Made by a program: the position numbers and the translations under genes. Positions 3,338-14,624 of a stretch of 14,786 bases of DNA are shown here, piece after piece. Below the pieces are notes generated by a model. The model saw nothing but the letters and a program-made list of their open reading frames with translations, did no database searches and was not told the origin of the DNA. Origin of the DNA: Elusimicrobia bacterium HGW-Elusimicrobia-2 (lineage in GTDB: Bacteria; CG03); contig PHAM01000047.1 of the NCBI GenBank assembly GCA_002841685.1, forward strand, positions 1 to 14,786. The letters run 5' to 3'. The first letter of the stretch is position 1, and the number at the start of each line of letters is the position of its first letter.

Positions 3338-4308
3338 AGGTGAAATTAAGAACAGTTAAAGAAATTCTCTCAATAGAAAAAAGGGCCATAGAGGAAAATA
3401 TCAATCCCGCCTTTGTTTCCGCGATACAGAAAAGCGTCAATCTGCTCTTCAAAAGGAAGACCGGAAAAATAGCGGTCATGGGCCTCGGCAAATCCGGCCT
3501 TGTGGCGAAGAAAATCGCCGCGACCCTTTCTTCCACCGGCAATCCGGCTTTTTTCATACATCCCGGAGAGGCCGCGCACGGAGACATAGGCATGCTCAAC
3601 AAAGGCGACAGCATAATAGCCCTGTCATTCTCGGGGGAAATAATGGAACTGGCCAGCCTCCTGCCTCTTATCAAAAAACTCAGAATACCCATAATATCCA
3701 TAACCGCGAGGCCCGAATCGGCTCTCGGAAAAATAGCCGACTGCCTCATTCCCATCAAAGCTTCAAAACAGGCCTGCCCCTTTAATCACGCCCCCACATC
3801 GTCAACAACGGTGATGATGGTGACAGGCGACGCGATAGCGATAACGCTCATGCAGAAAAAAAAGCTGCAGGCGCGGGACCTGGCGCTCCTTCATCCGGGC
3901 GGCGTGCTGGGGAAAAAACTCTCCATGCAGGTGAGGGACATAATGCGCAAAGGCAAAGAGAGCCCCGAACTTAAAAAGGGTAGCTCCGTTAAAAAAGCTC
4001 TTTTTGAGATGACGCGCTCAAGGCTCGGCGCCGTGAGCATCATAGACAAAAACAGAAAACTCGCCGGATTTTTTACCGATGGGGATCTGCGGCGGCTCAT
4101 GCAGGAAAAGCCGGATGTGCTGAACGAAAAAATAGAAAATGTCATGACAAAAAAACCCTTTACTGTGCTGGACACAACCCCGGCCTGGAAAGTCGCCGAA
4201 ATTATGAACAGGCGCAATTTTGACAATATTCCTGTTGTTGATAAGTCCGGAAAGCTTGCCGGGATAATTGATGAAAGGGATCTTCTGCGCGAAGGCCTTG
4301 CCGGCTGA
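3334..4308 (+). CDS. kdsD: D-arabinose-5-phosphate isomerase (KpsF/GutQ family)
   Basis: Interconverts D-ribulose-5-phosphate and D-arabinose-5-phosphate, the first committed step to Kdo. At 324 aa it has the full family length: a SIS domain (about 40-185) followed by two CBS domains (about 203-265 and 270-324). SIS signatures are MGLGKSG (49-55), STGNPAFFIHPGEAAHGD (67-84), APTSSTT (153-159) and HPGG (187-190). Mapped on E. coli KdsD, whose catalytic positions are Lys59, Glu111, Glu152 and His193, this protein has Lys53, Glu105 and His187, but Gln146 in KQACP in place of Glu152. The usual SNSG motif is SFSG (98-101). Both changes are clear in the codons. It starts in an ATGA overlap with kdsA, 8 bases after AAAGGAG, and ends the operon; no terminator hairpin follows. 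The CBS pair suggests ligand regulation. Confidence 0.9.
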   Translation: MKVKLRTVKEILSIEKRAIEENINPAFVSAIQKSVNLLFKRKTGKIAVMGLGKSGLVAKKIAATLSSTGNPAFFIHPGEAAHGDIGMLNKGDSIIALSFSGEIMELASLLPLIKKLRIPIISITARPESALGKIADCLIPIKASKQACPFNHAPTSSTTVMMVTGDAIAITLMQKKKLQARDLALLHPGGVLGKKLSMQVRDIMRKGKESPELKKGSSVKKALFEMTRSRLGAVSIIDKNRKLAGFFTDGDLRRLMQEKPDVLNEKIENVMTKKPFTVLDTTPAWKVAEIMNRRNFDNIPVVDKSGKLAGIIDERDLLREGLAG

Positions 4309-4355: not shown

Positions 4356-4384
4356 TTGACAAAAATTCTTTCTTAATATACAAT
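4356..4384 (+). promoter_or_regulatory. Sigma-70 promoter of dnaA
   Basis: A perfect -35 TTGACA (4356-4361), a 17-bp spacer and a -10 TACAAT (4379-4384, 5 of 6) make the best promoter in the window. Transcription should start near 4391, giving an 80-base leader that contains the 11-bp DnaA-box-like array. DnaA bound there could block the polymerase, a plausible autoregulatory layout. Confidence 0.75.
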
Positions 4385-4417
4385 TGTTTCTTAATGGCCT
4401 GAGCAGCCAAAAACCGC

Positions 4418-4461
4418 TTGTTGATAAGATGTTAATAACTTGTTGGAAAATTGTTAATAAG
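4418..4461 (+). repeat. Four contiguous 11-bp DnaA-box-like repeats (candidate origin iterons)
   Basis: Units at 4418-4428 (TTGTTGATAAG), 4429-4439 (ATGTTAATAAC), 4440-4450 (TTGTTGGAAAA, degenerate) and 4451-4461 (TTGTTAATAAG) follow each other without gaps. The core TGTTNATAA is one base from the DnaA box TGTGNATAA. All units point the same way, with 9-mer cores 2 bp apart. Same-orientation weak boxes at 2-bp spacing are known from the E. coli origin, where DnaA-ATP fills them cooperatively. The repeats are read directly; DnaA binding is inferred. Confidence 0.7.
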
Positions 4462-4471
4462 GGCTGAAATT

Positions 4472-4480
4472 TGTGGATAA
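4472..4480 (-). promoter_or_regulatory. Perfect DnaA box overlapping the dnaA start codon
   Basis: TGTGGATAA here is the reverse complement of TTATCCACA, the strongest known DnaA box. The dnaA GTG start (4473-4475) lies inside it. It is in the same orientation as the four-unit array, 20 bases after the start of the last unit. It suggests direct negative feedback of DnaA on its own gene and may also belong to the origin. Confidence 0.8.
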
Positions 4481-5810
4481 TTTTGAAATCGTATGGAAGA
4501 AAATCGTTAATAATCTCCGTTTAGAGATTACAGACGAGACTTATAAACTCTGGCTGGAACCGGCTATACCCACGAGCCTGGAGAACGACAAGTTAAGCGT
4601 AAAGGTCCCCAACAAATTTTTTGTCCGCTGGCTCAGCGAGCACTACTGCGAGAGGATAGACAACATCCTCAAGTCATCCGATCCCTGCCTGAAGGTGGAA
4701 TTTTATACGGACAAAGTGGAAAACAAAGTGGAGCCGGATTCCGTTGAGGCCCGCGAACTCAATGAAACGCTCTTTCTTCCGAAGAAGTTCGTTTCCAAAT
4801 ATTCTTTTGATAATTTCGTTATAGGGCAGTCCAATCATTTCGCCCACGCGGCGAGTCTGGCCATAACAAAAAATCCGGGGAACACCTACAACCCGCTGTT
4901 TCTTTACGGCGGCGTGGGCTTAGGGAAAACACATCTGCTCAACGCCATAGGTATAGAGATCAAAAAGCATTTTCCGGCGTTCAACATAATCTATGTCACA
5001 TCAGAGAAATTCACCAATGACCTGATAGAATATCTGAAGAACAACCGCATCGCCGAATTCCGCATCAAATACCGGAATGTGGACCTTCTCCTTATAGATG
5101 ACATACAGTTCCTCACCGGAAAAGAAATGATCCAGCAGGAATTCTTTCACACCTTCAACGCTCTCTACGACAGAAGAAAGCAGATCGTCCTTTCAAGCGA
5201 TTCAAGCCCCAAAGACATGGGTTCGCTGGAAGAGAGGCTGCGCTCACGCTTCCAGTGGGGGGTCGTGGCGGACATACAGCCGCCCGATCTTGAAACGAGA
5301 GTGGCGATAATCAAGAAGAAAATAGAGGCCGAGAAGATAAGCATTCCCGACGACGTTCTTTATTACATCGCCTCAAACATAAAAAACAACATACGCACAC
5401 TTGAGGGCGCCATCCTTTCCATAGCCGCTTATTCGTCCCTGACCGAAACGAGCATAACAATAGAGAAGGCCAAGGAATATCTGAAAACCGTAATAACGGA
5501 AAGCGACATAGAGAAAGACATAGGCCTTGATACCATCCAGTCGGTCGTGAGCAACAATTTTAATTTGAGCGTGGCGGATCTTAAAGGTAAAAAAAGAACA
5601 GAATCGGTGGTTTTTCCGCGGCAGATAGCGATGTATCTTTCGAGGATATTAACAAGCTACTCCACCACGGAGATCGGGGAATTTTACGGCGGGAGAGACC
5701 ATTCCACCGTCCTGCACGCCGGAAATAAAATAAAAAATAAAATAACGAAAGACCCTTATTTCGCGGCATTGTTAAACAAAATCACCAAGCAGGTAAAAGA
5801 AAGTGCATAA
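4473..5810 (+). CDS. dnaA: Chromosomal replication initiator DnaA
   Basis: Binds DnaA boxes, oligomerises with ATP and melts the origin. At 445 aa it is of usual length. Domain I covers about residues 1-80 (partner binding, with KLWLEP and FVRWLSEHY), followed by a short linker to about 108. The AAA+ core (109-335) has Walker A GGVGLGKT (146-153), Walker B LLLIDD (205-210), sensor 1 SSD (241-243), the arginine finger region LEERLRSRF (252-260) and sensor 2 Arg308 in NIRTLEG. Domain IV (about 350-445) ends with the DNA-recognition signature GGRDHSTVLHA (406-416). The start is GTG, supported by AAGGG 9 bases before it and by alignment of MDNFEIVWKKI to DnaA N-termini. The start codon sits inside a DnaA box, and the gene has its own strong promoter. 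A 198-bp spacer with further box-like sites separates it from dnaN. Confidence 0.98.
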   Translation: MDNFEIVWKKIVNNLRLEITDETYKLWLEPAIPTSLENDKLSVKVPNKFFVRWLSEHYCERIDNILKSSDPCLKVEFYTDKVENKVEPDSVEARELNETLFLPKKFVSKYSFDNFVIGQSNHFAHAASLAITKNPGNTYNPLFLYGGVGLGKTHLLNAIGIEIKKHFPAFNIIYVTSEKFTNDLIEYLKNNRIAEFRIKYRNVDLLLIDDIQFLTGKEMIQQEFFHTFNALYDRRKQIVLSSDSSPKDMGSLEERLRSRFQWGVVADIQPPDLETRVAIIKKKIEAEKISIPDDVLYYIASNIKNNIRTLEGAILSIAAYSSLTETSITIEKAKEYLKTVITESDIEKDIGLDTIQSVVSNNFNLSVADLKGKKRTESVVFPRQIAMYLSRILTSYSTTEIGEFYGGRDHSTVLHAGNKIKNKITKDPYFAALLNKITKQVKESA

Positions 5811-6008
5811 CTTGATATTTTTGAATTTTGCAGGGGAAAGGGGCAGGGCGGTTGAAAGTTGTCTACAGGTTATCAGTGTGAGCTTAAACGCGAAAAAGCC
5901 TGTAACACATGGCATTTTGGAAAGGGGCCGGGGCGTTATGAACATATGCACAGGCCATAATACTAATACGACTAACTTTTTTAAAGAAGAGAAAGAAAAG
6001 GGGGAAAA
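5811..6008. other. dnaA-dnaN spacer, candidate second half of oriC
   Basis: This non-coding spacer holds two adjacent DnaA-box-like sites in the same orientation, TTATGAACA (5936-5944) and ATATGCACA (5944-5952), each one base from TTATNCACA. A short GGCC follows, then an AT-rich triplet-like tract with TAATAC twice (from 5958 to about 5976), T6A3 and a polypurine run that supplies the dnaN ribosome binding site. Two G-rich imperfect direct repeats lie at 5825-5853 and 5914-5937. TACAGG (5864-5869) and CCTGTA (5899-5904) form an inverted repeat. Box cluster, short GC segment and AT-rich triplets resemble the unwinding region of Bacillus-type origins. Origin function is inferred. Confidence 0.55.

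Positions 6009-7126: not shown

Positions 7127-7130
<4 letters not shown>
6009..7130 (+). CDS. dnaN: DNA polymerase III beta sliding clamp
   Basis: Forms the dimeric ring that tethers the replicative polymerase and other partners to DNA. It is 373 aa, the usual length, with three clamp domains (about 1-120, 121-245 and 246-373). Recognisable clamp features are TSTDLEVSTRI near residue 45, DVAKGNLQDYPQIP at about 108-121, ATDGKRLA (about 174-181), SSRLIDGTYPDYKNVIP (about 240-256) and the C-terminal YVALVMPMRS, equivalent to the E. coli end VVMPMRL. The ATG is preceded by AAAAGGGGG at good spacing, within a long polypurine stretch. It follows the candidate origin spacer after dnaA, and its stop overlaps the dciA start by ATGA. 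recF, which often follows dnaN, is not present here. Confidence 0.97.
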
Positions 7131-9789
<2,659 letters not shown>

Positions 9790-13528: not shown

Positions 13529-14299
13529 ATGCTTGATGAAATTGTCATATCGAGAAGTATCATAGAGTCGTACAGTAAAAAGTTTTTAAAAATTCTTGAT
13601 GTTGATGTTGCCGTGGTCGGCGCCGGGCCTTCCGGACTGGTGTGCGCCGCATATCTGGCAAAAAAAGGTTTTAAGATCGTTCTTTTTGAGAAAAAGTTTT
13701 CAATAGGCGGCGGTATGTGGGCCGGCGGCATGATGTTTAACGAAATAGTCGTTCAGGAACCGGCGAAAAAAATTCTGGATGATTTCGGCATAAAAAGCAG
13801 AAAGTACAAAAAGGGTTATTATCTTGTCGGTTCCGTAGAATGCGTTTGCGCGCTCGGACTTCAGGCGGCAAGAAACGGTGTGATTGTCATGAACGGTATT
13901 TTTGCCGAAGATGTTATGGTGAGGAAAAACAGAATCACCGGACTTGTCATCAACTGGTCTGCCGTTGATATGGGCGGGCTTCATGTCGATCCGCTGAGCA
14001 TACGGGCTAAAGCCGTGGTTGATGCCACAGGGCATCCCTGCGAGGTCGCGAAAATTGTAGCGGCAAAATCAGGAATGAAACTGAAGACAAAATCCGGCGG
14101 CGTTTTGGGAGAAAAATCCATGTGGGCGGAAGTGGCCGAAAATACGGTTGAAAAGAATACCATGGAAGTTGCCCCCGGATTTTTTGTTTGCGGAATGGCG
14201 GCAAATGCCGTGTGCGGTTCTCCCAGAATGGGGCCGGTTTTCGGTGGAATGCTTTTGTCCGGGCGGAAAGCCGCGGATATAATTGCCAAAAAATTGTAA
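13529..14299 (+). CDS. thi4: Thi4-family thiazole synthase, archaeal (sulfide-dependent) type
   Basis: Makes the thiazole half of thiamine from NAD and glycine. At 256 aa it matches archaeal and bacterial Thi4 and lacks the longer eukaryotic N-terminus. The Rossmann dinucleotide motif VVGAGPSG (29-36) is followed by the acidic LFEKK (52-56), the flavin/NAD-type GGGMWAGGMMF block (60-70), INWSAVDMGG (141-150), and a C-terminal CGMAANAVCGSPRMGPVFGGML (221-242). The decisive residue is His152 in GLHVDP. Yeast Thi4 has the sacrificial Cys205 there, while the Methanocaldococcus enzyme has His and takes sulfur from sulfide. This protein should therefore be catalytic rather than single-turnover, and suggests a sulfidic, anoxic habitat. 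GAAGGGGG precedes the ATG, 18 bases after serS. Related ribose-1,5-bisphosphate isomerases share the fold, but the motifs favour Thi4. Confidence 0.9.
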   Translation: MLDEIVISRSIIESYSKKFLKILDVDVAVVGAGPSGLVCAAYLAKKGFKIVLFEKKFSIGGGMWAGGMMFNEIVVQEPAKKILDDFGIKSRKYKKGYYLVGSVECVCALGLQAARNGVIVMNGIFAEDVMVRKNRITGLVINWSAVDMGGLHVDPLSIRAKAVVDATGHPCEVAKIVAAKSGMKLKTKSGGVLGEKSMWAEVAENTVEKNTMEVAPGFFVCGMAANAVCGSPRMGPVFGGMLLSGRKAADIIAKKL

Positions 14300-14318: not shown

Positions 14319-14624
14319 ATGGGTGCAAAAGGCTGGGAGATCAATAACAAAGTCAAAGGGACATTGACAAAGAACTGGGTCGATGTTCCTAACCTCTCTA
14401 TCAGCACCGTAAGGGATGTTGTCGTGATAAAAGGCGACCTTAAATTCAAAGGCGGCAAGGTGTCCACCGACAGCGAAACCGCTGTTATTGACGTTCTCAG
14501 AAAGATAGAGAGAGAGCTGCACCAGGGCGCGGATATAAAAACGATCAAATGGGAACTGACCCAGTGGGAGAAGCGCGGCGGAAAATGGTATAAGAAAAAA
14601 TTCAAGCATGAAAGCGGCGCTTAG
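14319..14624 (+). CDS. Small hypothetical protein, 101 aa, possibly BON-like
   Basis: I do not recognise this protein with confidence. It is mixed alpha/beta and basic. A strand-rich segment VPNLSISTVRDVVVIKGDLKF (about 23-43) is followed by a helix (SETAVIDVLRKIERELHQG, about 52-70), then a strand IKTIKWELTQWEK (73-85) and a Lys-rich tail. The pattern of a short strand with V-x-x-G after a predicted turn, then a helix, is reminiscent of the BON fold, but the similarity is weak. There is no signal peptide or membrane segment, so it should be cytoplasmic. No ribosome binding site precedes the ATG; an extended -10 element ends 6 bases before it, consistent with leaderless translation. It lies 19 bases after thi4 on the same strand. 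No terminator follows. Confidence 0.65.
   Translation: MGAKGWEINNKVKGTLTKNWVDVPNLSISTVRDVVVIKGDLKFKGGKVSTDSETAVIDVLRKIERELHQGADIKTIKWELTQWEKRGGKWYKKKFKHESGA

Follow-up and report, generated by a model that had tools for sequence, protein, structure and literature searches.

An array of co-oriented DnaA boxes ahead of dnaA in an Elusimicrobia-type genome and the covariation of box base 6 with DnaA residue 435

Introduction

The initiator DnaA and the DnaA box are treated as nearly universal. In E. coli, the dnaA control region carries DnaA boxes which are located between two promoters. Beside the Bacillus-type oriC, a bipartite origin has been described for C. difficile (PMC7561715). The basal unwinding system consists of one or more DnaA boxes, a short spacer and at least three DnaA-trios (PMC8287927). 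With regard to sequence recognition, E. coli DnaA binds more poorly to boxes deviating from TTATNCACA (PMC5043019). P423 of E. coli DnaA is a base-contacting position (PMC5043019, PMC7561715), and residues 435 and 438-439 have been named as possible causes of clade-specific recognition, 435 not being linked to base 6 of the box (PMC5043019).

Here, we present a sequence analysis of the dnaA region in a 14,786-nucleotide stretch of DNA (the window), a contig of an Elusimicrobia-type metagenome-assembled genome with a gene order including kdsD (SIS and CBS domains), dnaA, dnaN, gyrB, gyrA and serS. Named relatives are Elusimicrobia bacterium CG03_land_8_20_14_0_80_50_18 and CG08_land_8_20_14_0_20_44_26. 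Two small ORFs of the window, 7127-7399 (90 aa) and 14319-14624 (101 aa), gave no Pfam match; the former separates dnaN from gyrB, a position often occupied by DUF721/DciA proteins. A Thi4-family thiazole synthase gene is located at 13529-14299, downstream of serS.

An array of 11-bp repeats precedes dnaA. We consider it likely that these repeats are co-oriented DnaA boxes on which DnaA loading would repress dnaA, that they would form the upstream half of a bipartite origin, and that their TTATNAACA spelling fits the recognition helix of the DnaA encoded beside them.

Results

Layout of the dnaA leader

The region around the dnaA start comprises the following features:

4356..4384, + strand: sigma-70-type dnaA promoter TTGACA-17-TACAAT (11/12 matches; TTGACA-17-TAnnnT in 7/7 family genomes)
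4419..4427, - strand: array unit 1, DnaA-box variant TTATCAACA (forward TGTTGATAA); position and orientation kept in the family, paired in tandem in further families of the phylum
4430..4438, - strand: array unit 2, TTATTAACA (forward TGTTAATAA), from sequence and comparison with relatives
4441..4449, - strand: array unit 3, degenerate TTTCCAACA (forward TGTTGGAAA), from sequence
4452..4460, - strand: array unit 4, TTATTAACA (forward TGTTAATAA), from sequence
4472..4480, - strand: consensus DnaA box TTATCCACA (forward TGTGGATAA) overlapping the GTG start codon, from sequence
4473..5810, + strand: dnaA (DnaA_N, Bac_DnaA and Bac_DnaA_C domains; aligned N-termini)

The transcription start of dnaA is expected near 4391. 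With the promoter at 4356-4384, the array therefore lies within the transcribed leader, in agreement with an initial annotation of this DNA which had sited it between a strong promoter and the dnaA start. The four 11-bp units span 4419-4460 between the sigma-70-type promoter and the GTG codon, all on one strand and at a pitch of 11 bp (about one helical turn); their coordinates bear out the single orientation and the 2-bp gaps between 9-mer cores that had been noted before. Judged as 9-mers with at most one to two mismatches, the units qualify as DnaA boxes, units 1, 2 and 4 differing from TTATNCACA at base 6 only and unit 3 being degenerate. The last bases of unit 4 overlap the probable Shine-Dalgarno sequence AAGGG (4459-4463).

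The repeat array proved to be real. None of 200,000 shuffles of the 88-nt leader gave three TGTTNATAA, and a TGTTNATAA pair at pitch 11 was likewise obtained in 0/200,000; the self-identity of the four units was 44/54 at pitch 11 versus 14-23 at all remaining pitches between 8 and 19. In pattern searches, the source of all genome background counts of box motifs, TGTTNATAA was found 101 times in the 1.78 Mb of the window's genome (about 1 per 18 kb), and pairs at most 30 bp apart solely at the dnaA leader array. The 11-bp pitch as such is a general property of bacterial DnaA-box clusters and not special to the window; same-strand boxes beside dnaA in other genomes show a spacing of mostly 11-12 bp, with lesser peaks near 22, 33 and 44.

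A perfect box had also been reported 9 bp past the last unit. The spacing was confirmed, and since the box contains the GTG start (4473) it does not lie upstream of the start codon. This box is broken in the congener G001 (TGTGGAAAT) and absent from other genera; not being conserved outside part of the genus, it was rejected as an anchor of the array. What conservation it shows is explicable by coding.

Conservation in family and phylum

Across the genomes of the window's family, whole-genome searches detected TGTTNATAA pairs at most 30 bp apart beside dnaA only. Tandems with exactly 2 bp between the cores are present in 6/7 family genomes and in 0/9 other genomes of the phylum; the seventh family genome (G006) has the same pairs spelled TGTTNGTAA, again beside dnaA only. 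An alignment of relatives, proposed earlier as a check, gave the predicted picture of persisting cores and drifting flanks. Within the genus, the promoter-array interval drifts while the unit cores stay, and the congener G003 has exactly one additional 11-bp unit. Unit 3 is altered in G003, and in G001 it has a 1-bp insertion. In the remaining genera of the family, two units are kept with unchanged orientation, at 13 to 41 bp past the -10 box. As unit 3 and the start-codon box lack conservation beyond the genus and unit 4 merges with the Shine-Dalgarno sequence, the core element is formed by units 1 and 2, to which the more distant conservation is limited. Tandem boxes at pitch 11 are also found in the dnaA leaders of other families of the phylum, namely TTATTAACA/TTATTCACA in G009, TTATTCACA/TTATTAACA in G011 and TTATTAACA/TTTTCCACA in G013, and similar ones in G010 and G012. 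By their computed identity, position and conservation, the repeats are real, conserved DnaA boxes, that is, predicted binding sites, between the dnaA promoter and the gene.

Unit 4 meets the Shine-Dalgarno sequence and the start codon lies within the perfect box, as would be expected if the array were a product of chance or an RNA leader element conserved for its translation signals only. We rate this as the least probable reading of all: units 1 and 2, far from both translation signals, are the most conserved, shuffling never reproduces the units, and the boxes in the dnaA-dnaN spacer have the opposite orientation. A search for an RNA leader element gave no Rfam family match.

A further box of the same spelling as unit 1 is located inside the upstream gene:

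4236..4244, - strand: DnaA box TTATCAACA (forward TGTTGATAA) in the 3' end of kdsD, identified by silent-site conservation

Its translation is Val-Val-Asp-Lys/Asn. We compared 61 four-fold degenerate codons whose residue is unchanged in five divergent genomes; the third base is invariant in no more than two of these codons, exactly the two Val codons of the box. Such silent-site invariance across genera points to selection on the DNA as well as on the protein. Another match in kdsD, TTATGAACA at 4202-4210, occurs in part of the genus only and was discarded as a coding coincidence.

The downstream module and the bipartite layout

Between dnaA and dnaN, the following features were recognized:

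5859..5878, + strand: degenerate pair of boxes at 11-bp pitch, TTGTCTACA-GG-TTATCAGTG (G004, G005 and G006 match better)
5936..5952, + strand: putative origin-unwinding boxes TTATGAACA and ATATGCACA at 8-bp pitch, from sequence and relatives
5953..5975, + strand: GC-rich spacer and DnaA-trios (TAA TAC TAA TAC GAC TAA), from sequence, with the layout of PMC8287927

Boxes, a short spacer and at least three trios are thus all found at 5936-5975, and comparable modules with TAN repeats are present in the other family genomes having a complete dnaA-dnaN spacer. The recurrence of the array variant in this spacer, part of the initial annotation, amounts to a single copy, TTATGAACA at 5936, in opposite orientation. 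An upstream box cluster, as in a bipartite origin, is present in the form of the leader array plus the kdsD box. DnaA-trios were not detected in the leader array, which is therefore not the unwinding site. Its earlier description as an origin module stands in a restricted sense: by its layout, the leader array is the predicted upstream half of a bipartite origin, with the unwinding element in the dnaA-dnaN spacer, downstream of dnaA. GC skew along the contig of just 14.8 kb stays close to zero up to about 4 kb and becomes positive to the right of this point.

A coordinated base-4 change in a sister genus

In a sister genus represented by one metagenome-assembled genome (G006; L049, G006:C36), 7/7 matching origin-region boxes have C instead of T at base 4. 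These are TTACTAACA in kdsD, TTACTAACA and TTACCAACA in the leader, two copies of TTACCAACA in the spacer, and ATACCAACA and ATACAAACA at the unwinding site. With the change of the kdsD box (forward TGTTAGTAA), the protein reads Val-Val-Ser-Asn at this site. Among 16 genomes of the phylum, TGTTNGTAA pairs at most 30 bp apart are confined to the two of G006, both at pitch 11. The motif is otherwise rare in G006, at 30 copies in 1.5 Mb or roughly half the number of its control. None of the other surveyed genomes had C4 in similar excess, the nearest having three C4 boxes to one T4.

DnaA of G006 differs from that of the family at several domain IV sites, with unique residues at 398, 423 and 443, including Thr -> Ile at the P423 equivalent:

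5667..5669, + strand: DnaA codon for Thr399, the counterpart of E. coli P423 (Ile in G006)

Since Ile is also found at this position in G039 and G186, which have ordinary T4 boxes, the P423 substitution alone is insufficient for the change in G006 and was rejected as its sole cause.

These changes bear on the nature of the repeats. Direct repeats of 11 bp look iteron-like and might belong to a plasmid-type Rep, an unrelated repressor or some other protein instead of DnaA. However, their core is one base off the DnaA consensus, their spelling is common to the trio-adjacent boxes and changes in step with them, and the tandem core occurs nowhere else in the genomes of the family. Furthermore, the adjacent gene is dnaA with all three domains, and none of the other scanned neighbours is a Rep. 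This renders recognition by another protein very improbable.

The array might instead be purely an operator of dnaA with no role in initiation; every family genome has it directly after the promoter, with no DnaA-trios adjacent. In G006, by contrast, leader, kdsD and unwinding boxes have the base-4 change in common; a shared DnaA specificity alone would have the same effect, and the pattern is therefore not decisive. A pure operator appears to us rather unlikely, and we prefer the reading in which the array would serve both the dnaA operator and the upstream origin half.

Residue 435 and base 6 of the box

The initial annotation had regarded the boxes as lineage-specific and weak. The first label is contradicted by TTATNAACA boxes beside dnaA in many phyla; the second, judged by the E. 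coli consensus, is not supported as written, while DnaA proteins with Ser435 go with A at base 6. The window's DnaA belongs to this group:

5703..5705, + strand: DnaA codon for Ser411, the counterpart of E. coli T435, covarying with box base 6 (cross-genome tests)

The measure was the fraction of TTATN[A/C]ACA boxes beside dnaA that have A at base 6. In the discovery set of 90 genomes outside the phylum, this fraction averaged 0.55 with Ser/Ala435 versus 0.21 with Thr435 (p=1.5e-5). Attention turned to residue 435 only after a first test of P423, and the discovery set is therefore exploratory; in its scan with AT adjustment, 435 was the top column, not significant after correction for 663 tests. 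For the held-out test, the prediction was written beforehand, and 76 new genomes, some sharing families with the discovery set, gave 0.53 versus 0.18 (one-sided test, p=4.6e-4; t=3.8 in the model including AT content). In the pooled 149 genomes outside the phylum, residue 435 gave the strongest signal among 844 tests of protein columns (p=8e-7). The link persisted in a phylogenetic model with Brownian evolution (t=4.1), with about 23 changes along the tree. The effect is also seen in the separate TTTTN[A/C]ACA boxes (p=0.004), and composition-matched control motifs, with few counts, showed no significant effect of 435. Two other candidate determinants of base 6 were dismissed: P423 had no effect with residue 435 and AT content included, and His/Tyr439 showed no association.

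Across bacteria, boxes with A in place of C at base 6 accompany DnaA proteins that have Ser/Ala, and not Thr, at position 435. As the window's DnaA has Ser there, its AACA boxes may be ordinary for their own protein and not weak, and low affinity cannot be assumed. We give even odds to a wider proposition, according to which residue 435 (Thr versus Ser/Ala) would set the base-6 preference (C versus A) across bacteria and the sister genus G006 would have switched base 4 of all its origin boxes with further DnaA changes, a natural specificity switching of a universal initiator.

Beside DnaA itself, most genomes of the phylum encode a second protein with a DnaA-type ATPase, of roughly 560-800 aa. 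The 745-aa protein at L002:1006-3243 (G000:C60) has a DnaA-type AAA+ domain and a zinc-ribbon-like CPNCG...CYSCG, and is devoid of DnaA_N and of a box-binding domain.

Discussion

In the proposed mechanism, DnaA molecules would sit next to one another on the TTATNAACA units at 11-bp spacing, close enough for contact between protomers. The array begins about 30 bp into the expected transcript, and a DnaA filament on it could therefore block the polymerase, which would repress dnaA and close a feedback loop; autorepression through the leader boxes is probable. Together with the kdsD box, the array would form the upstream half of the origin, and the strands would open at the oppositely oriented boxes and DnaA-trios of the dnaA-dnaN spacer. 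The TTATNAACA spelling would be matched to the recognition helix of the window's DnaA, with Ser at the position of E. coli T435. We infer looping and ATP dependence in the same way as DnaA binding and repression, and given the poorer binding of E. coli DnaA off TTATNCACA, occupancy of the leader boxes in vivo is uncertain.

A residue-to-base rule readable from sequence would allow better origin prediction in uncultured phyla and would make initiator-origin co-evolution directly testable with two point mutations. For a phylum with little origin work, the window offers a concrete origin map with a putative feedback operator, a hidden coding box and an unwinding element.

In comparison with known systems, the window resembles the Bacillus-type bipartite oriC in having box clusters on both sides of dnaA and boxes, a GC-rich gap and trios before dnaN. 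Its own features are the A6 spelling, the array in the transcribed leader, the extra kdsD box and the 8-bp pitch of the unwinding boxes. With the low-affinity arrays of E. coli oriC (C3-C2-I3-C1 and R5M-tau2-I1-I2), the array shares co-oriented off-consensus boxes 2-4 bp apart, a likeness by sequence only; in the window, all units but one have the same precise spelling, which fits the lineage's DnaA, and they are sited in the dnaA leader. DnaA boxes in the dnaA control region are also part of E. coli dnaA autoregulation, whereas those of the window lie downstream of a single strong promoter. The epsilonproteobacterial DnaA boxes likewise show a clade-specific preference, tentatively tied by the authors to residues 435 and 438-439 (PMC5043019). 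Their distinctive base is T at position 5 (PMC5043019), while that of the window is A at position 6, here accompanied by a cross-phylum test of residue 435.
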